DNA of 43,969 nucleotides from a virus. The position numbers were made by a program, and so were the translations under genes. Shown here piece by piece: positions 16,202 through 43,969 of this stretch (position 1 is its first letter; every line of letters begins with the position of its first letter). The stretch spans positions 1 to 43,969 of IMG/VR virus record IMGVR_UViG_3300009506_000065; one strand, written 5' to 3'. The notes beneath the pieces were generated by a model. The model ran no database searches. It was not told the origin of the DNA and saw only the letters and a list, made by a program, of their open reading frames with translations.

Positions 16202-17758
16202 TTAACCTCCCATCAGGCGTTTACGCCTACTCTGTTTTTCAACTGGCGACTTTGGCATTTTCTCCCTGGACCGCTGATCATCCTTTTTGAGATCTGCACC
16301 GCCACGGGCATCAAGGGCACCAGCGATCGAGTATTCCAGGGCATTTTGGCAATGATCATACCAGCCATCTTTAAGCGGAGTATCCAGAACAATGTCCATA
16401 TTTGCCAGGCGTTTGGTTTCCCGGACATATCCACCGGTGAAGCCGTCGATAAGAACATTTTCATATCTTGGGGCATCCTCGTAGAACCGCCGAGTATGAC
16501 AGCCGCATTGTTCATCGATAATGAGACCGCGTTTTCCATCCGGACGGCGCCGCAGCGCAGCGCGAACCATGTCAACCAGGTCCTTTTTGCGCCGCTGCTT
16601 ATAATGCGGATGAATGCCATGGCTTTTAAGTACCTCAATCGACCGCTTTTCGTTTTTCTCGGTGACAAGATCGGATCTCTGGACTCCGGCAGCATCAACC
16701 CAATCGACCCAGCGCAACTTCTTTCCAAATTCGGATTCGCGCCATTCGATAGCCGCGGAAGTGAAATCGTCCAGGTTAATTTCCGTGCCCATGAACTCTC
16801 GGAAAATCCGTATCTGGCCATCGAGGGAGAATTGCCAGATAACAACGGCCGGGTGCATATATCCGAAATCCCATCCGCAGTAAACGGCGCGGTCGGGCAT
16901 GAGCCGGATGCCAGCGGTCTCGAAATCGACAACGTGATCGGATCTGACGAAGGTGGGGTAAACTCGGCGTCCACCGGCCACAACAAACGACAGCTCTTGC
17001 TCTTGGTCCCAATCCTCCTGGCTGAGATACGCCCGGCGCATTTCCCTTGCCCATGAATCGTCTCGATCCGGATGGTCGGACCAATGGAGCTTAATCCGAT
17101 GGTAATTGCCGCCGATCCAGACTTCGTAATAGGCATTGAATTTCCCGTTAGGGGTGGAGACGATTGCGATCCGGCCGGTATGGCCAGCCGTCGCGGCCAT
17201 GGCCTTGAGGGTCTGATAGCCGAAAGGATGAAAGGCAAATTCGTCAAGCAGGGTTTCGGTAACGGTGAAGGCGCGGCCAGCGTGTTGGCCGGCAGGAATC
17301 GCTTGGAAGATGCCGCCTTTGGCGAATCGCATATACGTAGCGCCTTTGGCCACGACAGGATTATGTTGTTTGTACCTGTCAGGCATACTATCGTACATGA
17401 ACTTGGCCCGGGTGATAACTTCTTTGGCATTGTCCAGGCGCTGAAGGATGATATTGCCGCCAAAAACTTCGCCAAGTTGTTCATCGGCTCTCCAGGCCTT
17501 ATGTAGATAACGGCTGGCCCAATAGTTTGTGATAAACAACTGCCGGGCTTTGAGCGTGACCGACAGCCGGTTTTCTTCAATATCACGATGATACCGATGC
17601 AGATAATCAAAACGGGCTGGGTACGGCTCCACCTGGCCGGTGGCTTCGTTTCGGGTTTTAAGGTCTTTTGCAAATTCCCAGAAATCATCCCTTGCCGCCA
17701 TTAGCCAATGATTAGGGGCTCGCGCCCGCATCGCTGTTATTGTTTCGTCCCTGGTCAT
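16202..17758 (-). CDS. terL: Terminase large subunit (518 aa)
   Basis: The packaging motor ATPase/nuclease that pumps DNA through the portal. With ATG 17758 as residue 1, a degenerate Walker A-like stretch lies near residues 69-76 (LKARQLFIT). Walker B with the catalytic Glu is near 169-173 (TLLDEFAF), and the coupling motif VSTPNG is near 200. The nuclease domain begins near 294 with YCGWDFGYMHP (first acidic residue D297), then VDWVDAAG near 355. The glycine-rich Walker A loop is not classical, which is common in phage terminases. The start is uncertain: ATGs at 17758, 17731 and 17701 and a TTG at 17797 are all possible and none has a strong ribosome site. It overlaps the small subunit gene by 47 bases. 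Confidence 0.9.
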   Translation of the reverse strand: MTRDETITAMRARAPNHWLMAARDDFWEFAKDLKTRNEATGQVEPYPARFDYLHRYHRDIEENRLSVTLKARQLFITNYWASRYLHKAWRADEQLGEVFGGNIILQRLDNAKEVITRAKFMYDSMPDRYKQHNPVVAKGATYMRFAKGGIFQAIPAGQHAGRAFTVTETLLDEFAFHPFGYQTLKAMAATAGHTGRIAIVSTPNGKFNAYYEVWIGGNYHRIKLHWSDHPDRDDSWAREMRRAYLSQEDWDQEQELSFVVAGGRRVYPTFVRSDHVVDFETAGIRLMPDRAVYCGWDFGYMHPAVVIWQFSLDGQIRIFREFMGTEINLDDFTSAAIEWRESEFGKKLRWVDWVDAAGVQRSDLVTEKNEKRSIEVLKSHGIHPHYKQRRKKDLVDMVRAALRRRPDGKRGLIIDEQCGCHTRRFYEDAPRYENVLIDGFTGGYVRETKRLANMDIVLDTPLKDGWYDHCQNALEYSIAGALDARGGADLKKDDQRSREKMPKSPVEKQSRRKRLMGG

Positions 17759-18392
17759 GTGATTTCTTAGCCGCTGGTGGAGTACATTTCCAGCCAAGGT
17801 TTCTCAGCCAGCCGGCATATATTTCCTCAACTTCACGGTCGGACATATTTTCAACTGCTTCCGCGGATCGACTGCTATTTATGAATGTCTTGGGAGCTGC
17901 CGATTCGGCCAGCATCCGAGCTGGTTTGCTCATGGAAAGGTAAATCCTGATAGCCCGGTGACGGTCCCGAGGCTCAGGACAGGTTTTTAGATCCTTCGAA
18001 AGCACGTTGCAGGCCTCGATGAAATCCCGGTAAACATATAGCGGAGAGTATTCTTCGATGGCTTTCAAAATATCCGGATCTACCCTTAATCGATGGTAGT
18101 GGCGTTCCGAAATTCCGCAAATGTCAGCCTTCTCTTTAACGGTGGCAGTATCTAAATCGGCGCAAATCATTGTAGCCAATACTTTTCGGCGGGTATCGTC
18201 CAGCGACGTTTCCGTGAATAATTTGCAAATCTCTGACATCAAGCCCTTAACGGTGTCAGTCAGCCGTGCATGGCGGTCTTTTGGCTTCTCAGCGGGTTTG
18301 GCTTTCTTTGCCGGTCGCCTGTTTGGCGTCCGACCAGGCTTTTTTCGGAATCGTCCGTCTTTATTGCGGGGTTGTGATTTTTTCGCCGGCAT
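17712..18392 (-). CDS. terS: Terminase small subunit (226 aa)
   Basis: The first 45 residues are Lys/Arg/Pro-rich (AKKSQPRNKDGRFRKKPGR). A helix-turn-helix follows around residues 85-115 (VKEKADICGISERHYHRLRV), then a helical oligomerisation region and an unstructured Asn/Ser end. A HTH protein directly upstream of the large subunit is the normal place for the DNA-recognising small terminase. I chose ATG 18392, nine bases after GGAG, over ATG 18407. The stop lies inside the large-subunit gene, so translation is coupled. The nested inverted repeat at 18413-18488 just upstream could be its binding site. Confidence 0.8.
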   Translation of the reverse strand: MPAKKSQPRNKDGRFRKKPGRTPNRRPAKKAKPAEKPKDRHARLTDTVKGLMSEICKLFTETSLDDTRRKVLATMICADLDTATVKEKADICGISERHYHRLRVDPDILKAIEEYSPLYVYRDFIEACNVLSKDLKTCPEPRDRHRAIRIYLSMSKPARMLAESAAPKTFINSSRSAEAVENMSDREVEEIYAGWLRNLGWKCTPPAAKKSHDQGRNNNSDAGASP

Positions 18393-18412
18393 CCTTGCCG
18401 TCTCCATGGATG

Positions 18413-18488
18413 GTAGTCCACCCGATTACCGGGATCGGCCGCGGCAACTTCCCTGTCACCGCGGCCGATTGCATCAACCATGGACTAC
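18413..18488. repeat. Nested inverted repeats upstream of terminase (candidate packaging or leader element)
   Basis: An outer 8-base repeat, GTAGTCCA at 18413-18420 and TGGACTAC at 18481-18488, encloses a perfect 11-base G+C-rich repeat, ATCGGCCGCGG at 18434-18444 and CCGCGGCCGAT at 18459-18469, with a 14-base loop. A smaller hairpin CCCG-ATTAC-CGGG sits between them at 18421-18433. As RNA, this would fold in the leader of the late transcript; as DNA, it is a good candidate for the terminase recognition (pac/cos) site because it is adjacent to the small subunit gene. Neither role is proved. Confidence 0.6.
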
Positions 18489-18493
18489 GTTCC

Positions 18494-18523
18494 ATTGGAA
18501 AGCACGAAAATTGGGCTTGTCAA
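18494..18523 (-). promoter_or_regulatory. Candidate late promoter
   Basis: On the minus strand a perfect TTGACA (18523-18518) is followed after 18 bases by TCCAAT (18499-18494), which matches four of six bases of the -10 consensus. It lies just after the early-unit terminator hairpin and about 100 bases before the small terminase gene, where a promoter for the ~36-kb late unit is needed. The spacing and -10 are not ideal. A phage-specific or activator-dependent promoter is also possible. Confidence 0.45.
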
Positions 18524-23304: not shown

Positions 23305-23673
23305 CTATTCTCCCGAAAAATGCAGGCACCTATGCCCGTTAATTTCCAAATGCTTAAATGTAAGTGGCGTCTCAGGATAATCGTCTGGAAGATCAAATTC
23401 AACTTCAAAAGATGGTCTCGGACCGCTACCCTGCCTTATGCGAGCAATCAGGTCCCATTTCAACGTCTGATAAAAATCAGACCTATCTCTTAATTCGAGC
23501 ATAATAGCCAGGGCCAGCTGAGCCGGGCCTGAGCCGCCGTATCCCCAATTAAAACCGGTGGGCGAGTGATTGCAATAGTTTATACTGCGCTCAGGCAATA
23601 ATTCCTTGCCATCCAAGAAGAAGGATAAATTTTCGCCGCCGTAGTGTCCTGCTTTCAGATTATGCTTTGCCAT
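23305..23673 (-). CDS. DUF6166-like protein (122 aa)
   Basis: Residues 1-60 contain HYGGENLSFFLDGKEL and the conserved block NHSPTGFNWGYGGSGPAQLA followed by LAIMLEL, which I recognise from DUF6166-type phage proteins (NHSPTGFxWGYGGSGPAQLALAIL). The C-terminal half (EVEFDLPDDYPETPLTFKHL) is acidic. The molecular function of the family is not known to me. ATG 23673 has GGAG six bases upstream and follows the structured region. Confidence 0.8.
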   Translation of the reverse strand: MAKHNLKAGHYGGENLSFFLDGKELLPERSINYCNHSPTGFNWGYGGSGPAQLALAIMLELRDRSDFYQTLKWDLIARIRQGSGPRPSFEVEFDLPDDYPETPLTFKHLEINGHRCLHFSGE

Positions 23674-23690
23674 GGTTACTCCAAATTTTC

Positions 23691-24180
23691 GGTGGCCGCG
23701 GCCGGGCTGGGATCGACTTGCGAGGGTCGATGAGGGAGAAAGGCCGCGGTCACCTGGTTAGCCTGGACCACTTAAAATGGGGGATGGGAAAAAGCAGGCC
23801 AGGCACAAATTTACGGGGCGGCAGTAATAACCTCGGTCCGGTGACGTACAGCCGCCCCATTCGCCGTTGGACCGACCCACCGGGAAGCAGCGGAATTTAT
23901 TCGGCAAATCCCGCCTCATAGCCGATGGACTACGGGTATATTTTAAGGAACAACATGACGGGTTTCGCCTTAGCCCGTACCGGTGGTTTTGAGTACCACA
24001 TCAACCCGCAACGGTTTTCGCCGAAGGCTTCCATGTTGCTCCGACATACAGTTTTCAAAGATCAAGTGCGGTCGGAGCCGATCGGGCGACCGGCTCCAGA
24101 CCGCCAGCGGACGGCATCAGATCCGCTGCCTTCCACCGCGGCACGTTTGGGTAGAGTAGCCGCGGTTGTCCAAGGGAAGG
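23691..24180. ncRNA. Candidate large structured RNA (gene-poor region 23674-24195)
   Basis: About 520 bases without a convincing gene in a genome otherwise packed tightly. It holds a series of complementary arms: 23691-23703/23742-23754 (13 bases, one mismatch) enclosing 23712-23717/23726-23731; 23815-23822/23851-23858 (8 bases); 23983-23987/23995-23999 (5 bases); 24068-24080/24091-24104 (13 bases, one bulge); 24105-24111/24122-24128 (7 bases); 24135-24142/24159-24166 (8 bases). CGGTCC in the loop at 23834-23839 is complementary to GGACCG at 23869-23874 outside that stem, a possible pseudoknot. It lies in the minus-strand early unit, so the minus strand is the likely transcript. Short minus-strand frames exist (23758-23919, 53 codons, Cys-rich; 23930-24034, 34 codons) but lack ribosome sites. 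Family unknown. Confidence 0.5.
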
Positions 24181-24195
24181 AGATATGAAACCATG

Positions 24196-24939
24196 CTACG
24201 ATTTACCCCCTTTGAGCTTTTCCAAGTGAGCTATCAGGGCGCCAGCCTGACCTTTAGTCATGCTCGATATCTGCTTTTTCCAGATTTCCTGCAAGGCCAC
24301 CTTGTTACCCTTAGCGGCGTCCAGGTCAACTTTCTTGGCTCCCATCCGAGTAAGAACGTCGTTAAAATCGATGGAATCGCCAAGCTCATGAACCATGGTC
24401 GAAATCTTCTGCCTTTGGGGCAACGTAGCCAGGTCCGATCGACCCGAGGGCTGATCGCCGGGAGAGGATGCTGTCCGTGTTCCCCGACTACCCGTACCCT
24501 TGCCGCCCGGGTCGATTACCGGAACCTGGAAAAACTTCTGATAGAAATTCTTATTGGCGTTGGTCTCAGCCTGGCCGACCGCATGATCCGATACGTCCAG
24601 AGCAACACCGCAATTTTCCACGACAACGATATCGCTGGGCTTATCGACATTAAACAATTTCCATTCCACCACGACCTTAGCCAGCATCCAGGTTTTTGAA
24701 GTTATAACCCCCTGTTTGTCGATCGATTCCATTTTCCATGGTTCGACCAGGGTATTCTTGACGGTTCGAACAATCAAGACGCCGTGTTCGAATAATAGAG
24801 GACGGATAGCATTGAGAAATCCGTCCTCGGTCGCATACCAAAATCCAGCTTGCTTATGCTGGGCATTGCGTTCAATGACCCCAACGCCCTTTTGAACCGC
24901 CAGAATCCGCTGATAGATGCTGGGGGGCTCATTATCCAT
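24196..24939 (-). CDS. erf: ERF-family single-strand annealing recombinase (247 aa)
   Basis: The N-terminal domain (residues about 5-140) carries family features: IYQRILAVQKGVGVIERNA, GFLNAIRPLLFEHGVLIVRT, and VALDVSDHAVGQAETNANKN then FYQKFFQV, matching ERF's '...D..DkA.gkA.T...K......F'. A Gly/Ser/Arg-rich linker (DPGGKGTGSRGTRTASSPGD) leads to a small helical C-terminal domain. ERF proteins anneal complementary strands and promote phage recombination or circularisation. It follows the Gp157-like gene, a usual neighbour. ATG 24939 has AAGGG nine bases upstream; GTG 24948 is too close to it. Confidence 0.85.
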   Translation of the reverse strand: MDNEPPSIYQRILAVQKGVGVIERNAQHKQAGFWYATEDGFLNAIRPLLFEHGVLIVRTVKNTLVEPWKMESIDKQGVITSKTWMLAKVVVEWKLFNVDKPSDIVVVENCGVALDVSDHAVGQAETNANKNFYQKFFQVPVIDPGGKGTGSRGTRTASSPGDQPSGRSDLATLPQRQKISTMVHELGDSIDFNDVLTRMGAKKVDLDAAKGNKVALQEIWKKQISSMTKGQAGALIAHLEKLKGGKS

Positions 24940-25906
24940 TGGAATCACCCTTGAAATGCGTCACGGCTTTGGCCTTGAGGCTGATTTCGCGCTGGATATT
25001 GGACCGATCCTCTTTGCCACGCCAGAAGGGCTTCGGGTCTCCCTTGACCAGCTTGGCAAAGGTCGCCAGGAATTCTACCGGATAGCGATGGTCACCGGCA
25101 ACCTCAGCTTCCTCGATTTCAGCCAGGGCTTTTTTGATCGCCGCCTTATCGGCTGAAATGGTCGTTTTCCTTATGTAAAGACCAGCTGCAATCAGGTCCT
25201 CGATATCCGGATCATCCTCGGGGTTATAATCGGAGCTGATATCGACGCTTTCGCGGCCTTCGGCAAAAGCGTAACAGCCCATGCCGGGTACCTCGAATTT
25301 CTCGATATCCATGATGTTCATATACCGGATAGCTTCGCTATTGATGCGGTCGAGCCAGTCACGCAGCATGGCGATCAGTTTTTCATAGGTACGGCCGACA
25401 AAATCCAGGGCCAAGCCCATGTGAAGCTCCATGCTGCTGATTTCGCCGTAGATATTGTTGGCCCACAGCAGGGCTTTGGATAAATCATCCTCACCCTCGA
25501 TCGTAAAATTTTCGGGCGGTATCGGCAATTCCTGAGTTACCCCGGCATCGATCGACATCGAGGCGGCTCTCATTCTGGCCAGGGCTCTGGCCAGATCGTT
25601 ATTCTGCTGAGTAATGCCCGAGGCGGTAATGAACAAATTCACGACTTCGTTGAATAGGCTGCTATCAACGATGGTCATGCCGTAGCTCCTTCTATTCATC
25701 AGCTGATAAATCGAGGCAGGCTTTTCCAACTCCTTCAGCGGTGGCGCTTCGGCTCCGGCATTGGCTACCGGCTGAGGCTTATCAAGGACTCCCGCATCGT
25801 CCTTTATGGTTTCGCTGGCTCCGACTCCTGCCGCCGATAGGGGCTGAGCCATATATCCAGGCTCGGCCGTTTGTTCATTTTCTTGATTGTCAAGATTTTG
25901 GTCCAT
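24932..25906 (-). CDS. Gp157-like helical protein (324 aa)
   Basis: Residues 1-65 are acidic, Pro/Ala-rich and probably disordered. Residues about 75-200 are long helices (SLFNEVVNLFITASGITQQN, ISSMELHMGLALDFVGRTYE, IAMLRDWLDRINSEAIRYMN). The C-terminal part, FEVPGMGCYAFAEGRESVDI and then TTISADKAAIKKALAEIEEA, resembles siphovirus Gp157 proteins: a helix pair and then a beta segment plus 'dK.aIk.alk'. It precedes a recombinase, as Gp157 genes usually do, and is likely a DNA-metabolism accessory. ATG 25906 with GGGAG is preferred to GTG 25912. Confidence 0.7.
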   Translation of the reverse strand: MDQNLDNQENEQTAEPGYMAQPLSAAGVGASETIKDDAGVLDKPQPVANAGAEAPPLKELEKPASIYQLMNRRSYGMTIVDSSLFNEVVNLFITASGITQQNNDLARALARMRAASMSIDAGVTQELPIPPENFTIEGEDDLSKALLWANNIYGEISSMELHMGLALDFVGRTYEKLIAMLRDWLDRINSEAIRYMNIMDIEKFEVPGMGCYAFAEGRESVDISSDYNPEDDPDIEDLIAAGLYIRKTTISADKAAIKKALAEIEEAEVAGDHRYPVEFLATFAKLVKGDPKPFWRGKEDRSNIQREISLKAKAVTHFKGDSNG

Positions 25907-36445: not shown

Positions 36446-39400
36446 TCAATCTCCTGTGAATTCCCCTCGGGAAAATGCGTATTTTGGATATTTGATATTC
36501 CAATGCCGAATTAGATCCATGGCCCGGGCGTTATCTTTCGCCCGGTAAGCATTTTTGATTCTGGCCTTTAAGAGCCGCCGTTCATACATGATATTTTCGT
36601 GGCGTTGTTCCTTGGTGCGCTGCCGGTGGAAAAGGCGCCCGACCAGCGGATAATCGGCCGGTTGCTTCATCCTGCTGACTTCTTTGCCGGCCAGAATATC
36701 TTCCATCATGTTGGAAATGTCGCCCACCGACCCAGCCAGGTAGGCTTCATCAAACTGCTGTATCTTTAACGGTGAAAATTGAAGAACCTTGCCCAGCTCA
36801 ACAAAGGTCCGAGGCGTCCATTCATAGTATTGCTCGGTTTCAGGCTTCAGCTGCATATATTCGGGAACAACCGGACGATCGCGGAAAGCGTCATAGTTAT
36901 AGACAACCTCGGTCACTCCCTTAATCGTCAGCGGCATCCATTGATCCCATGAAAGACCGACCTGATCAGCGACCTCTCCCATGGCATCTTCCAGCTCAAC
37001 CGGATCATCGTGATACCAATAATTCATGATCGCTTCCGGAATGGATGAAAAGACCGTGCCGATCGTAAAGGGCCGCGGCAGACGAATAATCTTATCACCA
37101 ATTTTGAAATTCCAGAAACCATATTTAAGCCAGGGCGGCATTTCCTTATACCATTCTTCATCCCGGTTCTGACGCCAGAGCAAATATGTTGGGATCGTTA
37201 AATAGGCCATACCGCGGAAGGTTGTTCTGGCTGGATGCGTAATCCATACCCGGGCCAGCTTAATCGGGCTTTGGACCATGGCATTCCAGAAAGGAACAAT
37301 CTGATTGACGACTGAGCCGATCGTGCCCATGCGGCTAAAATTCAGGGTTACTTCCTGAGCCGCATTGCTGGCCCAAATGGCAGCATCGGCAGATTCCTCC
37401 CCATACTTCTTCTGAGCCGCTTTGAGAATTCGCTTGAATTCGGTCAGCCTGGGAGCTGCTTCCATGACGCCGACCAGCTCTTTGGCCACCTCGATCGGAT
37501 GCTTGACGACATTAAGAGCTTTGGCCAATGGTTCGGTTCCCATCACCCTGTCAAGGGCCCCGGCAAAGCCCTGGCGGTCCATGCCGATATAAGTTGAGAA
37601 ATCGACGGCCGATCGCCTGAATTTATCCATAACTTCACCGCCCTGGATCTTCGTCAGCAGACCCTCGACGGTGGCGGCACCAGGCACATTGCCGATGATA
37701 TTTCTGGCTTCTGACTGAACGCTGTAGGTAAAGGCGTCACGGAGAGGATTCGATATCCAGGCAAAGCCCGGTCTCAGGCCGGTAGTGACCAGGCGAAAGG
37801 CTCGGGTCGGTTTTCCAAATAGGAAATCCATGGCCGGTCCCAGGTGAAATTGATCCATACCCTTGATTGCAGCCCATACCTCCGGATCGAATTGCCAGAA
37901 TTCCGGTTTACCATTCCTGACGATGGCGCCGATCGGTTCCTTTCCGAAGTAACGACCGGCGTTGATCCAGACGCTCAAAAATTGATCTTTTGAGTTTTCC
38001 GACATCTCAAATCCCATTTCGGCCAGCTGGGATTCAATCTGCTCGAGGGAGAAATTTATATGGCGCATCGGTGGCGTGACTTTATCGGCGAATTTGCCGC
38101 CTCCCTTGGTGGTCTTAGCCAGATCAACGAAACGGCGCATCACCCGCATCTTATCTGCCAGGTTGATCATCTGTGCCGTTTGCTCAATCATCACCCACCA
38201 CGGATTTCTTCTGGCCCTGGACGATCCTTTAACCCGCGGCAAAGCATTCGGGAGATCCAGAAAAGCCTTGCCGCCTGTCGGTAACCGGCCCATTCTCCCG
38301 GCTTCCTCAAAAACGACCTTCAGCGGTATATATATCGGATTGGCCTGACGGATCGCAATCCTGGCGTCGGGATCGAGGCCGGCAGCTTCGCCAAGATAAT
38401 CCAGAACCCTATCCTGAAAACCGGTCACTTCCTCGGCTATTCGGCGAAATGTCGGATTTTTGCCGTAGAGTTTATAATCGCCCGATATCCTCTGATTCTC
38501 AATGTTGCTGATCAGGAAGTTTACCTCAGCTGGCATAAGATTAGTTTTCATACCGCGTTTCAGGTACGATTGAAGGGATCGCTCGGCAAACATGAATACT
38601 GTCAGCTTCTCGAGATCTGCTTTGTTGTTGATCGGCTCCAGGGCGTCTCTCAGCGAGGCTCCGGTTTTAATCTTGGCATAATTGTAGGTGCCGTTCATCA
38701 GCATTTCAATCGCTTTACCCGTTGCTTTTTTGGCATCAGCCCGGGCCATCATCGTCGGACTGCTGGACGGTGGAATTGAAACCGGATCGAGCTTGCTGCG
38801 CCATTTCAGACCGCGGATCTTCTTTTCTGCATATTCGAGACCATAGATTTCATCGGTCCAGAGCCTGATATTCCAGCGGACGAAGCTGCCGATTTTCTGA
38901 GCAAACGGCAGATCGGCCATTTTGCCTTTCCAGTCGAAAGTCTGAAGGGCGTGTTCATAGGCGCCTTGTTCCAGCATCCGTTTATTCATCGATTGCAGCG
39001 TCCTCAGATTCTTCATCAGCTCCGGACTGTTTTTGAGAAAATCAACGTCAAAGGAATTGAAGAATATCGGCGCGATCTCTTTGGCGTGTTCATCCCCGCC
39101 AGTCATCCATTCCCTGAAATACTCCGCAAAGCCTTCGCCTATTCGCTGTTTCTCCGGATAATCATAATCGAGCTGCATCAGCTCGGCATTATCTTTGTAA
39201 CGCTCTCGAATTTTAAGATCATGGTCAATCTTGTGGGCCAGTTCGTGCATCAATGTGCCAAGATCATCCGCATCCCTCAATCTGATAACCTGGGACGGCC
39301 GCTTAAAAATTCCTCCCCGGGTCCTGCCGGCAAATTTCTTATGCCTCACCGGTACGTCAAAGGTTTTCCTGACCCACTTGGTTATCTCATAGGTTGATAT

Positions 39401-42400
39401 ACCTTTCTCCTGGTCAAATTCGGGCGGTGGCTCAATTTTGAATTTTCCAGCCAGCTGGCTCTTGATCACGGCATCGGTTTGCTGCCTCATTTTGGAAGCC
39501 TCAGTTGCTTCCGGCGCCGTACCCAGGCTAAATGTCTTTATCAGATCCTGAACGCCTTTATCACCGGCAGCATAGAAGAAAGATCCGACCGGTTGCCAGT
39601 TGAGGCCATATTTGAGTCGCTTTTGACCGGCAACCTCGTGAACGACATCTTTCATCTTCGGACCGGTGACGACATACTTGCCTTCTCTCGATCCGGATCG
39701 GCCATGGTGTATTGTCCAGCCGTTGCCGAGATAGATTTTTTCGCCAGCGCGAAGCTCAGCGATAGCATTATCCGGAGTGATGGCGGTTCCAAAGCCGCCG
39801 ACCTTAAACATACTGGCCAGAGGTTTAACTTTTGTTTTTTGAATCTCAAGGCCGGGAATAGTTTCGGTGCCGGTATCGAATTCCACAAAGCGAAAGCGTA
39901 CTTCACCTGAACGCTTGTTCACCGGTAGGAAATCTCTCAGCTTTGGCATATTCTCGCTGATAATGCCGGTCAAGACGCCATACTGGCTCTGATCGACCGC
40001 TTTTACTTCGTAAAGATGAAGATCATCATTCAATATGGCATCGCGCAGCACTTCGCCAGTTTCATGGCGTTGCTTTCTCAACTCCGTCCAATCGGCGCCC
40101 TGGGCGATAGCTTCTTTATATGGCGCAATATCAATGCCTTCATTCTGCATCGATTTCAATTCGGCATCGACGGCATCCCGATATTGTTCGGTATAGACTT
40201 GCTCGTATAACTTTGACAGTCGGTCGGCATCCTCGTATGGAATTGTCTGGAAGCTGCGCCAGAACCGTTTCAGATCATTGGCGTCGATTTCCTCAAGCTC
40301 CATCCGGCCTTCGCCCTGATTATCCCGGAAAGATTTAAGGTGCGTCCACCAATCCTTGTCGTCTCTCGGAAGTCGGCGCCAGAAGGCACGAAGCGTGGAT
40401 CGGTGGACGCTCGATGAAAATTCGAAAGAGGCCATGGACTCGGTGCCGGTCGATTCAGCCTTGCCCTTGGAAGTGGCTCCGAGATTTTTCATCCTGGACG
40501 AAAGATCACCCAGGAAACGACGTTCACCTGGTAGGCCGAAGTGCATGATTGAGATTTTAGGGGCTGATTTCTGATCGGCGCGATCGACACGACCCAGGGC
40601 CTGCTTGAAGCTATCCGGACTGTATTCTGGATCGGTATCAATCCAGTAACGACGGCGACCGTTGGTATCCTGAATGCTGACGCCGCGCTTTCCTGCTTTC
40701 GAAGCGACCGCCACCGGTCTCTTGCCTTTGTTGAAATCGGCCATGTGCTGCATTCGGACCTTTGAACTCACCCGGCCGGTCAGATTGGCTACCTGGTCAA
40801 CACCGAAGCGATCGGTAATTTCCTTGATCGGGTCGGACCATCCCTCACCCCACAATTCCCGGGCATCATCATAAAGCTCGGCTTTGGCAACCTCAGCCTC
40901 GGGAACGACCCCGAGCCGGTTTTCCTGGCCGGTCCATTTATCGACTTCCCAGGCTACGGTATTGACTTGTTCGATGGCGTTTGTCAGGTGCCGCGGCAGA
41001 CCGGTCTTGCGGTCCATTTCGTATCCTTCAACTTCGGCATCGGTTATTTTGCTGTCACCGCGGATATTCAAGACTGAAATGATCGGTTGTTCGCCGGCCT
41101 TAATGGCCGCTTCGGCTTCATCGATGGCCCGTTGAAGGCGCAGGCGGTAATAGTGATATTTCATGAGTGCCTGGACAGGCCCCTCAATGCCAAAACGTGC
41201 CCTGAGCTTTCTCTTGTCGATTTTGGCGTATTTTCGATAGACGGTCCTGAGTTTGTTATAAAATTCTGACAATCGATTGATATGGGCCTTTTCTTCGGGC
41301 GTCAGAGTATTCTGTTTGGTTTCGAATTCAATTCCCTCGCGCCAGAGATCCGCAGACATCATATATCCCCGGGCGGTCATTTCTCGAACAATTTGCTCGG
41401 TCTCGCTGGGGCTGAAATGGGTGGCCAGGCTCGATTTCGACGGTGGCTTTCCTTTGGCCAGGCGTTCCCGTTCTTTCTCGATGTCGCTGAGGCTCCCCAG
41501 GGTGTTTTTCTGGATCTGACCGAGCCGCTGCCGTTCCTTGATATCATCCTGCTTCTGGCCCTTCAATTTGCCGAGGTAGGCTTCGAATTCCCCTGGCTTC
41601 CATAGCCCGAGGCCAAAGAGATACTCCATTTCCTCAATGTTTCGGCCAATGGTGGCCGACAGGTAGTGGAATTTGGCGCCGCGCTCCAGGAGCCGAAGAT
41701 GGAGATCTATCCAGTCTAATCCGCGCTGGGAACCATAGATGTTCCGGAAAGAATCAGACTCATCGCATATCAGGCAGTCAAAATCGATATCTTTCAGCTT
41801 ATTATGAAATCGGTGGTAATTATTGGCGTCGATGAAATATACCGCTTTATCGAAACGAGGAATATCCTGATCTTTGGCCTTCCTGGCGGCTGAGGCGTCC
41901 GGATATTCAAGACTGACATCGACCATCCGATAGGGAAATTCGCCGTCACCGGCTTTCCTGAACATATCGAGAAGGCCATCGCCGCGTTCAATCAGATTGA
42001 TTCGACTGGCAGTCATTACCAGGATTCGATTCGACCGGCCAGACGCCAATTCATCATAGGCGGTACCTACAACGATCCGGCTTTTGCCTACACCGACATC
42101 GTAACCGTGGCCGAAACCGTGACCGGCATTGACGTTGGCATCTATTCCTCTGGCGATAAAATCAAGTTGTTCATCGGAAATAAAGCCCGATTTATTCAGG
42201 CTGTGGACTTCATCAGTAACCTTGACCGCCTTTGAATCGGGGATTCCCAGGGCGGCTGAAGCTCGGGTTAATACTATTCGTCGGGGATGGGGCTTTCCAG
42301 CTCTCCGTTCAATTCGAGGCTTAAATTCAGCAAACACTCGGCTACGTACCTTGCCCTCGGTTCTAACGATTCGGGGAGCTTTTCTTTCTCCGGCAGCTCC

Positions 42401-43969
42401 GCCAGGAGCAGGGGCAGGAATTCCTCTCTCCTCTCCTGGGGCCACCATTTCGGTACGTGGGGGGGCTTCGGGTCGAATTGGTCCTTGGCCAGTAGGACGC
42501 TCACCGGTAGGTGGCTCAGATTCTCCGGTAGGTCGTCTTGGTCCAGGGGCGGGTATCCGTGCCGGTCGAGGTAGGCCAGCAGATACTGGACCGGGTTTTC
42601 CACCTGTGACATCTTTCTCACCTCCTGGCGGGATTTCAGCCGTTCCCGGTCTGTCACCCACCAAATCTATAACGGATTTCAGGTCGTCAATGTTCCGCGA
42701 CTTTTTGGCGTTGCGGGACTCACCTAAAAATCGCTCCAGGGCGTGATGAACGTCGGCGGCATGGTCAAGCCCATATTTACTCTTTCCTTCACGGCTATAT
42801 AACGCAATTACATCAGGTCTGTCAAGCATATCAGGTTTGACCTTATCGGCCACCAATATCCATGAGCCGATATCGGTTCCGCGACCAGGGCCGTAGGCCT
42901 TTTCCGGCGATAATATGACAGCCTTTACTGTGTATTGATCGCCAAACTGTTTCCACCATTTTCCGGCATTCATTCGCTGACCGGGTAGCATGGTCGTCGG
43001 AAGCAGGGCGACCAGCCGTCCACCATCCACCAGGTCGCGCATCGCCTTATCAACGAAAAGCGCAGCCAGATCCGGGACCTCAGCCGCCTTGGCCAATTTC
43101 GCGCGGCCGGCGCCGCCCCAGGGTGGATTCATGATTATAACCGAGGCGCGGTTGGCAAAATCCGATTCCAGATAATTCTCCTGAGACGTATCGCCCCAGG
43201 TTTTCTTCATAATTTCATTTCTGCCCGGGTCCAGCTCATTCAATATCCAGCCATCGGGTTTATATCTGACCGGTGCGACTAATGAGCCGGTTCCAGCGGT
43301 CGGTTCTAAAACGATATCGGCATCGGTAATTCTGGCGGCATCGCCCATGGCCATCGCCAGCGTCAGCGGTGTAGAAAACTGCTGCTTCTCCAGGGAGCTG
43401 GCTTCAAGACTCCGTGGACGCCGCGGAATCCGTTCCTCGTATTCCTTTGCGACCTTGTAACGATCCTCGACATTTTTGAAGGCTCCGGTGGCGTCGGCAA
43501 ATTGCCTGGCCAATGCGGCCTCATAGGCATCGTAGATTTTGTCGATATCCTTCTCGGTCAGCTTTTCATCGAAGACCTGGGCTTCCTTGATCATTTCCCT
43601 GGCGTTTTCCGGTTGCCAATCTTCCTCAATCTGGCGTTTGAAATAATCGGCCAGGTCAACCGGCTCTTTGCCGCGGGGCTGACCCATGGGATTATATTTC
43701 TGAATGCGCCTGGTCAGCGCCTTGATCGTCTCCGGATCGGTGACCTTGCCAAATACCCTGGTATCGAAATGCGTGAAGGCGTCGCGTTCATGGAGCATTT
43801 CATCGACTCGGGATAGATCAGCTTTCAGATCGGCTTCGGATTTATATGGTCCGGCGACCGGCACTCGTTTGCCGTCACGATCGAGAAATATGAAATGGGC
43901 CTCAGCTGCCGGCGTTTCGGCTTTTATGGCCTCCATGCCTTTTACGCTGGGAAAATAAACATCTTTTTT
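36446..43969 (-). CDS. Giant polyvalent phage protein, C-terminal part (residues about 1336-3842)
   Basis: Continues the protein begun at 4149-1; the frame is open through both copies of the 144-base overlap, so the total is about 3842 aa. Domains (full-length numbering): an adenine-type methyltransferase with EPTAGTGS near 1556 and NPPWGGAGRA near 1615; a Pro/Gly/Arg-rich linker (about 1790-1880), which holds the overprinted gene 42274-42612; a superfamily-2 helicase with GVGKS near 1956, DESD near 2068, SAT near 2103 and QALGRVDRAD near 2457; a zinc metallopeptidase (LMHELAHKIDHD, near 2909, with downstream GEGFAEYF); and a long C-terminal region from about 3215 with a hydrophobic segment (AYLTIPTYLLW), resembling large polyvalent-protein-associated domains. 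Methylase plus helicase resembles DarB/strawberry-notch-type anti-restriction proteins. Stop TGA 36448-36446. Confidence 0.93.
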   Translation of the reverse strand, partial: KKDVYFPSVKGMEAIKAETPAAEAHFIFLDRDGKRVPVAGPYKSEADLKADLSRVDEMLHERDAFTHFDTRVFGKVTDPETIKALTRRIQKYNPMGQPRGKEPVDLADYFKRQIEEDWQPENAREMIKEAQVFDEKLTEKDIDKIYDAYEAALARQFADATGAFKNVEDRYKVAKEYEERIPRRPRSLEASSLEKQQFSTPLTLAMAMGDAARITDADIVLEPTAGTGSLVAPVRYKPDGWILNELDPGRNEIMKKTWGDTSQENYLESDFANRASVIIMNPPWGGAGRAKLAKAAEVPDLAALFVDKAMRDLVDGGRLVALLPTTMLPGQRMNAGKWWKQFGDQYTVKAVILSPEKAYGPGRGTDIGSWILVADKVKPDMLDRPDVIALYSREGKSKYGLDHAADVHHALERFLGESRNAKKSRNIDDLKSVIDLVGDRPGTAEIPPGGEKDVTGGKPGPVSAGLPRPARIPAPGPRRPTGESEPPTGERPTGQGPIRPEAPPRTEMVAPGEERGIPAPAPGGAAGERKAPRIVRTEGKVRSRVFAEFKPRIERRAGKPHPRRIVLTRASAALGIPDSKAVKVTDEVHSLNKSGFISDEQLDFIARGIDANVNAGHGFGHGYDVGVGKSRIVVGTAYDELASGRSNRILVMTASRINLIERGDGLLDMFRKAGDGEFPYRMVDVSLEYPDASAARKAKDQDIPRFDKAVYFIDANNYHRFHNKLKDIDFDCLICDESDSFRNIYGSQRGLDWIDLHLRLLERGAKFHYLSATIGRNIEEMEYLFGLGLWKPGEFEAYLGKLKGQKQDDIKERQRLGQIQKNTLGSLSDIEKERERLAKGKPPSKSSLATHFSPSETEQIVREMTARGYMMSADLWREGIEFETKQNTLTPEEKAHINRLSEFYNKLRTVYRKYAKIDKRKLRARFGIEGPVQALMKYHYYRLRLQRAIDEAEAAIKAGEQPIISVLNIRGDSKITDAEVEGYEMDRKTGLPRHLTNAIEQVNTVAWEVDKWTGQENRLGVVPEAEVAKAELYDDARELWGEGWSDPIKEITDRFGVDQVANLTGRVSSKVRMQHMADFNKGKRPVAVASKAGKRGVSIQDTNGRRRYWIDTDPEYSPDSFKQALGRVDRADQKSAPKISIMHFGLPGERRFLGDLSSRMKNLGATSKGKAESTGTESMASFEFSSSVHRSTLRAFWRRLPRDDKDWWTHLKSFRDNQGEGRMELEEIDANDLKRFWRSFQTIPYEDADRLSKLYEQVYTEQYRDAVDAELKSMQNEGIDIAPYKEAIAQGADWTELRKQRHETGEVLRDAILNDDLHLYEVKAVDQSQYGVLTGIISENMPKLRDFLPVNKRSGEVRFRFVEFDTGTETIPGLEIQKTKVKPLASMFKVGGFGTAITPDNAIAELRAGEKIYLGNGWTIHHGRSGSREGKYVVTGPKMKDVVHEVAGQKRLKYGLNWQPVGSFFYAAGDKGVQDLIKTFSLGTAPEATEASKMRQQTDAVIKSQLAGKFKIEPPPEFDQEKGISTYEITKWVRKTFDVPVRHKKFAGRTRGGIFKRPSQVIRLRDADDLGTLMHELAHKIDHDLKIRERYKDNAELMQLDYDYPEKQRIGEGFAEYFREWMTGGDEHAKEIAPIFFNSFDVDFLKNSPELMKNLRTLQSMNKRMLEQGAYEHALQTFDWKGKMADLPFAQKIGSFVRWNIRLWTDEIYGLEYAEKKIRGLKWRSKLDPVSIPPSSSPTMMARADAKKATGKAIEMLMNGTYNYAKIKTGASLRDALEPINNKADLEKLTVFMFAERSLQSYLKRGMKTNLMPAEVNFLISNIENQRISGDYKLYGKNPTFRRIAEEVTGFQDRVLDYLGEAAGLDPDARIAIRQANPIYIPLKVVFEEAGRMGRLPTGGKAFLDLPNALPRVKGSSRARRNPWWVMIEQTAQMINLADKMRVMRRFVDLAKTTKGGGKFADKVTPPMRHINFSLEQIESQLAEMGFEMSENSKDQFLSVWINAGRYFGKEPIGAIVRNGKPEFWQFDPEVWAAIKGMDQFHLGPAMDFLFGKPTRAFRLVTTGLRPGFAWISNPLRDAFTYSVQSEARNIIGNVPGAATVEGLLTKIQGGEVMDKFRRSAVDFSTYIGMDRQGFAGALDRVMGTEPLAKALNVVKHPIEVAKELVGVMEAAPRLTEFKRILKAAQKKYGEESADAAIWASNAAQEVTLNFSRMGTIGSVVNQIVPFWNAMVQSPIKLARVWITHPARTTFRGMAYLTIPTYLLWRQNRDEEWYKEMPPWLKYGFWNFKIGDKIIRLPRPFTIGTVFSSIPEAIMNYWYHDDPVELEDAMGEVADQVGLSWDQWMPLTIKGVTEVVYNYDAFRDRPVVPEYMQLKPETEQYYEWTPRTFVELGKVLQFSPLKIQQFDEAYLAGSVGDISNMMEDILAGKEVSRMKQPADYPLVGRLFHRQRTKEQRHENIMYERRLLKARIKNAYRAKDNARAMDLIRHWNIKYPKYAFSRGEFTGD
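42274..42612 (-). CDS. Candidate overprinted gene inside the giant gene (112 aa)
   Basis: In the +1 frame of the giant gene, ATG 42612 follows a perfect AGGAGG eight bases upstream and opens a 112-codon frame ending TAG. The protein reads naturally: VQYLLAYLDRHGYPPLDQDD, LPENLSHLPVSVLLAKDQF, PKWWPQERREEFLPLLLAEL, then ARYVAECLLNLSLELNGEL. It is acidic and Leu-rich, with predicted helices. In the main frame the same bases code only a Pro/Gly/Arg low-complexity linker (RRPTGESEPPTGERPTGQGP), as expected if the second frame constrains the first. No family is recognised. Confidence 0.55.
   Translation of the reverse strand: MSQVENPVQYLLAYLDRHGYPPLDQDDLPENLSHLPVSVLLAKDQFDPKPPHVPKWWPQERREEFLPLLLAELPEKEKLPESLEPRARYVAECLLNLSLELNGELESPIPDE
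43826..43969. repeat. Terminal direct repeat, right copy
   Basis: Identical to bases 1-144; it represents the same locus of the circle and encodes the same residues of the giant protein (around 1336-1383). It should not be counted as a second copy of the gene. Confidence 0.97.

Follow-up and report, generated by a model that had tools for sequence, protein, structure and literature searches.

What does a phage keep in 522 nt between two protein genes that encodes no protein of its own? The stretch in question (23674-24195, minus strand) lies in a 43,969-base virus record, analysed over its whole length and referred to here as the window, and spans exactly from the stop codon of its upstream neighbour, an Erf-family ssDNA-annealing protein gene (24196-24948, minus strand; PF04404 at 7.5e-7, phrog_155 at 3e-20), to the start codon of its downstream neighbour, a DUF6166 protein gene (23305-23673, minus strand; PF19663 at 1.3e-16). 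The minus strand carries most genes of the record, with head and packaging genes (capsid, portal and large terminase) at 9.9-17.8 kb. At 36446-43936 (minus strand) the record encodes a polyvalent protein of 2,496 residues that is akin to the DarB type. The N-terminal part of this protein is methyltransferase-like, whilst its C-terminal part is common to Vibrio, Thalassomonas and Pelagibacter podophages. The terminase large subunit (16202-17701, minus strand) is read in the frame of 16202-17797, which the 491-aa ATG ORF listed at 16213-17688 does not share.

An earlier note on this DNA described the region as gene-poor within a genome of almost no spacer. Codon bias in all six frames of 23674-24195 was -0.15 to -0.06 per codon, against +0.16±0.09 in phage genes, and its ORFs had no PHROGs match and no above-chance Pfam match, thus the region is gene-poor as described and no conserved protein frame was found across it. 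That the plus strand hides a coding frame, for which there were two candidate ORFs, was rejected on the same codon usage and family searches. The remark on spacers was somewhat too strong, as gaps of 100-300 nt are present elsewhere in the genome, but within the minus-strand gene block no clear gap is longer than this one of 522 nt.

The gap is strongly folded on the minus strand, which is the gene direction. Its minimum free energy there is -218.7 kcal/mol, against -183.1±7.0 for shuffles that preserve dinucleotide content (z=-5.1, with none of 100 shuffles as low), and the plus-strand fold of the same element reaches z=-3.6. Among 87 consecutive 500-nt tiles of the window the element ranked second on the minus strand, at 31 kcal/mol below its shuffles (tile mean -7.5, SD 9.0), and the structure proposed in the earlier note therefore exceeds chance. 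In 200-nt tiles the element is not unique, with some coding stretches scoring equally, so the case for structure rests on the half-kilobase scale together with the absence of coding. The top-ranked minus-strand 500-nt tile for structure holds a near-perfect long hairpin at 18396-18505 (minus strand, z=-5.9), which overlaps and precedes the start of a small-terminase-like ORF (17712-18407); this hairpin and the element both have CGTAGTCCAT and CCGCGG stems, a degree of sharing that is within chance.

About eight helices follow one another on the minus strand, most with a mean pairing probability (P) of 0.9-1.0, and the main ones hold probabilities near 0.99 after flanking sequence is added. The run of at least six stems of 7-13 bases previously reported is all present here. 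Reading 5' to 3', hairpin 1 (24129-24180, containing CCGCGGC/GCCGCGG) places 10 bp (24166-24156/24144-24135, P=0.91) inside 6 bp (24180-24175/24134-24129, P=0.63), hairpin 2 (24105-24128) is an 8-bp stem (24128-24121/24112-24105, P=0.98), and hairpin 3 (24068-24104) has 16 bp with one bulge (24104-24088/24083-24068, P=1.00); the last had been noticed before as a 13-bp hairpin, and is there but larger than claimed. Helix 4 (23936-24049) has 11 bp (24042-24032/23957-23947, P=1.00) and 6 bp (24049-24044/23941-23936, P=0.58). It is followed by hairpin 6 (23877-23928), where 7 bp (23928-23922/23883-23877, P=0.91) and 11 bp (23915-23905/23899-23889, P=0.97) are separated by an internal loop, by hairpin 7 (23813-23860), an irregular stem of 18 bp (23860-23840/23832-23813, P=0.92) with the 7-nt loop GGACCGA, by hairpin 8 (23761-23804), with 12 bp (23804-23792/23773-23761, P=0.95) and a pyrimidine-rich 18-nt loop, and by hairpin 9 (23691-23754), with 12 bp (23754-23742/23703-23691) and an inner 6 bp (P=1.00 and 0.98).

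A pseudoknot suggested between 23834-23839 and 23869-23874 is borne out as an exact complement and extends to 7 nt (TCGGTCC/GGACCGA, 23833-23839/23869-23875, minus strand), pairing UCGGUCC at 23875-23869 with GGACCGA at 23839-23833 and so taking up the entire loop of hairpin 7. By a rough estimate the chance of a comparable pseudoknot in such RNAs is about 5%, and the same pairing could equally join two molecules. A candidate second pseudoknot within helix 4 (24032-23957, minus strand), in which GCCUU/AAGGC crosses GCGGGUU/AACCCGU, was picked out by eye only. For a single sequence, the predicted structure is well supported, and 23674-24195 is best read as a large structured non-coding RNA, most likely on the minus strand.

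The resemblance drawn in the earlier note to the GOLLD and ROOL families, or in part to C4 antisense RNA, did not survive a search against Rfam 15. The window had no match at gathering scores, and at E<=10 the interval 23500-24350 gave just four sub-threshold chance matches, with GOLLD (RF02032), ROOL (RF03087), C4 and HEARO not among them, so that none of these families is supported; a group II intron was rejected, with no such match in the element region. The absence of a ROOL match is informative since the same Rfam model detects ROOL in other genomes, a positive control which covers ROOL alone. A GOLLD survey of Lactobacillaceae gave no match that could serve as such a control. Searches for homologues of the element by megablast, blastn and nhmmer in phage and plasmid collections, among IMG/VR kin and in the individual loci read found none, a structure model of the domain formed by the boxA (described below) and helix 4 found no homologue, and the element is therefore an orphan in every collection searched. 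The phage around it is, on sequence comparison, a near-orphan as well, with no close kin in the collections searched: none were reached through Erf, the neighbouring gene, the portal or the major capsid protein, and distant relatives were found only for the polyvalent protein (~25-30% identity) and TerL (~24%). The structured RNA is absent from the distant relatives found by these two routes.

A feature that the earlier note did not mention gives the element a more definite likeness. Hairpin 3 and helix 4 are joined by an 18-nt linker predicted to be unpaired, CACUUGAUCUUUGAAAAC, which together with the bases that follow includes GATCTTTGAAAACTG (24063-24049, minus strand), a 15-mer identical to the boxA of many rRNA operons; hairpin 3 is directly 5' of it and helix 4 starts right after it. 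The 12-mer core of this boxA occurs exactly once in the whole window, and about 4e-5 occurrences are expected on one strand of 522 nt, a figure that is not a formal p-value as the boxA was first recognised by eye. When the element is folded alone the boxA has a mean unpaired probability of 0.79, ranking 20 of 531 windows. Its presence in this linker moves the likely function of the element towards antitermination.

We scanned 84,980 species genomes for the 15-mer, which was found at more than 80 loci, and read 80 of these. Bacilli, Paenibacillus among them, account for most of the loci read, and Desulfobacterota for several. A 16S or tRNA motif lay near the 15-mer at 33 of the 80 loci, typically 80-200 nt downstream (a simple motif search, in which a few hits are perhaps due to chance), and in 49 of the 80 the contig ended within 450 nt downstream, assemblies being prone to break at rRNA. 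About 30 of the 80 were apparent chance matches inside genes. The evidence that GATCTTTGAAAACTG is an rRNA-operon boxA, and thus a putative NusB-S10 site, is strong but post hoc, and the match is to the boxA of other genomes, which may not be that of the host.

In rrn leaders a boxB hairpin is followed by boxA and then by boxC, which forms part of the 5' strand of the leader-trailer helix; boxA is required, and is enough by itself, to recruit NusB-S10 and form the antitermination complex (PMC10250234). The element has the identical boxA 15-mer, with hairpin 3 just before it in the position of boxB, the long helix 4 just after it in the position of the boxC/leader-trailer helix, and then structured, untranslated RNA. 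It differs in lying between two protein genes, in having no rRNA, a folded domain of 75 nt standing where 16S would be, and in lacking a clear boxC: the boxC consensus UCUGUGUGGG (PMC10250234) has only a loose match, and the boxC-like CUGUAUG is too loose to count.

Among phage systems, the nut sites of lambdoid phages resemble the element in combining a boxA with a hairpin in an early phage transcript; they sustain transcription through the N protein, and the element would likewise sustain it. However, the boxA here is of rrn rather than lambda type, the element is 522 nt long, hairpin 3 precedes the boxA and has 16 bp instead of forming a small boxB, the helix after the boxA is long and multi-branched, and no N-like protein was found among the neighbouring proteins scanned, thus a lambda nut site was rejected. 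The put RNA of phage HK022 provides a case of a phage RNA whose own fold can give antitermination, although put has two hairpins in ~65 nt and works without a Nus boxA (sequence likeness to put was compared via Rfam alone). In the suhB leader, too, a boxA occurs away from rRNA, in the untranslated stretch before a gene, but that leader is short and its boxA represses translation, leading to Rho termination.

Taken with the sufficiency of boxA (PMC10250234), the rrn-like order of hairpin, boxA and helix leads to an antitermination reading, and we give an even chance to the element being a structured non-coding phage RNA that carries a cis-acting antitermination site of rrn type. Such an arrangement suggests that the phage may borrow the rRNA antitermination machinery of its host. 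The 522-nt RNA would be transcribed from the minus strand together with the phage early genes, host NusB-S10 would bind the boxA in the linker that follows hairpin 3, and together with NusA/NusG (plus SuhB in hosts that have it) would modify the host RNA polymerase, which would then stay processive through the untranslated structured stretch into the downstream genes. Tethering of the boxA to the polymerase may also aid folding of the RNA, as in ribosomal RNA, ahead of any later role the RNA might have. Against the antitermination reading, the boxA is less open once flanking gene sequence is included (unpaired probability 0.36-0.39), it is situated ~130 nt into the element, away from the element start, neither a promoter nor a terminator-like site was seen adjoining 23674-24195, no homologue turned up in which conservation of the boxA or of any helix would show, and ROOL loci are mostly without a boxA. 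The sign of its effect is also uncertain, since the boxA of suhB acts to repress translation of the gene that follows it (PMC5725501).

Across scanned viral contigs, the boxA pattern TTGWTCTTTGAAAACTR had 69 matches. Twenty-seven of these lay outside long open frames, compared with 15% at random positions in the same loci (binomial p=7e-7 with related copies counted separately; there are ~12 distinct groups), and the non-coding copies were mostly oriented as the next gene. For example, TTGTTCTTTGAAAACTA occurs inside Bacillus-type group II introns, between the D1 and D5 matches, in four viral contigs (L282, L294, L299 and L300). In two Enterococcus prophage-like loci (L287:9495-9511 and L308:13000-13016), which have a conserved non-coding stretch in common, a boxA precedes a pemK RNA by ~150 nt and runs in the same direction. 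A further viral contig (L295:9437-9453) has a boxA followed by a non-coding stretch resembling the Enterococcus one (GGCCATGACCTA), possibly an uncharacterised boxA-linked RNA. In one Lactobacillaceae genome (L352:1498-1510) the ROOL RNA itself starts with a boxA-like TTCTTTGAAAACA, a few bases past a TATAAT; of five ROOL RNAs inspected this was the only one, the other four having no such start, and a general link between boxA and ROOL was rejected. A combination of boxA with a downstream TATG in viral contigs was also rejected, its four matches being coding-looking or unrelated. These sequence matches suggest that boxA recurs, without a rule, among the non-coding RNAs that phages and mobile elements carry.

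The element may alternatively represent a new family of ornate RNAs that act in trans, in the manner of ROOL or GOLLD, and its copies might pair with one another by way of the 7-nt loop complement; the boxA would then be incidental or would only aid synthesis of the RNA. ROOL and GOLLD are likewise phage-encoded RNAs of ~500-800 nt with many helices and pseudoknots, and the size, the helix number and at least one pseudoknot of the element agree with this, as does so much structure that has no other role and is not in Rfam; the complement between loop and linker could pair intermolecularly, and ornate RNAs assemble as homo-oligomers (PMC12286853). However, the element matches neither Rfam model, has no homologues in the collections searched and hence no covariation, and shows no promoter of its own in the adjoining sequence, whilst ROOL and GOLLD are often near tRNA islands and here a tRNA/tmRNA search found none. 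We consider such a trans-acting role rather unlikely.

Improbable, in our view, is a leader or intercistronic regulator of DUF6166, in which the fold would mask the DUF6166 start until ribosomes finishing Erf open it. The mask could be a weak possible closing helix (23671-24195, minus strand) of CAUGGUU (24195-24189), which begins right after the Erf stop, with AACCAUG (23677-23671), which includes the DUF6166 start codon, and repression of downstream translation by a boxA has its precedent in suhB (PMC5725501). The closing helix appears in both the minimum free energy and centroid folds of 23660-24205 (z=-5.5), but its probability falls to 0.01 with longer flanks, so no reliance is placed on it; moreover, 520 nt far exceeds the need of such control, and the DUF6166 genes of 60 other viral contigs have no comparably long leader, which led us to reject a link to these genes.

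The gap could also be a GC-rich relic, such as a decayed gene or insertion, with its structure arising from composition and chance and its boxA from chance. Its GC content is 57.7%, against 50.9%, and one plus-strand frame has just two stops in 171 codons, but no frame has codon bias or a protein match, the dinucleotide-preserving shuffles still fall 5 SD short of the observed fold and the boxA is exact and on the right strand, which makes a relic quite improbable. An element that works as DNA (a replication origin, or a site of recombination or packaging), through hairpins in its single-stranded form, would suit the palindromic stems and the adjoining single-strand annealing gene, yet is very improbable, as one strand folds distinctly better as RNA than the other, the short repeats present are not iteron-like arrays, and the CCGCGG palindromes, rejected as a DNA signal, are nothing special to the region, with 44 copies in the window.

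Beyond the cis-acting antitermination site, we tentatively propose that the element may belong to a class of large ornate phage RNA not described before, with an rrn-type antitermination module at its core; the phage would divert the ribosomal Nus complex to the transcription and folding of the RNA, as may be so for some ROOL. Such a class would amount to a mini-rrn operon without rRNA, of which this element would, on the same tentative footing, be the first example. The viral scan suggests that rrn-type boxA in non-coding RNA of phages and mobile elements is commoner than the searched literature mentions. If the reading is true, this phage uses the ribosomal antitermination signal of its host, rather than an N-type system, inside a non-coding RNA that is both large and structured. 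Two separate subjects, the still unexplained ornate RNAs of phages and Nus-dependent RNA folding, would then be joined, and mutation of the boxA would provide a simple handle on how ornate RNAs are made.
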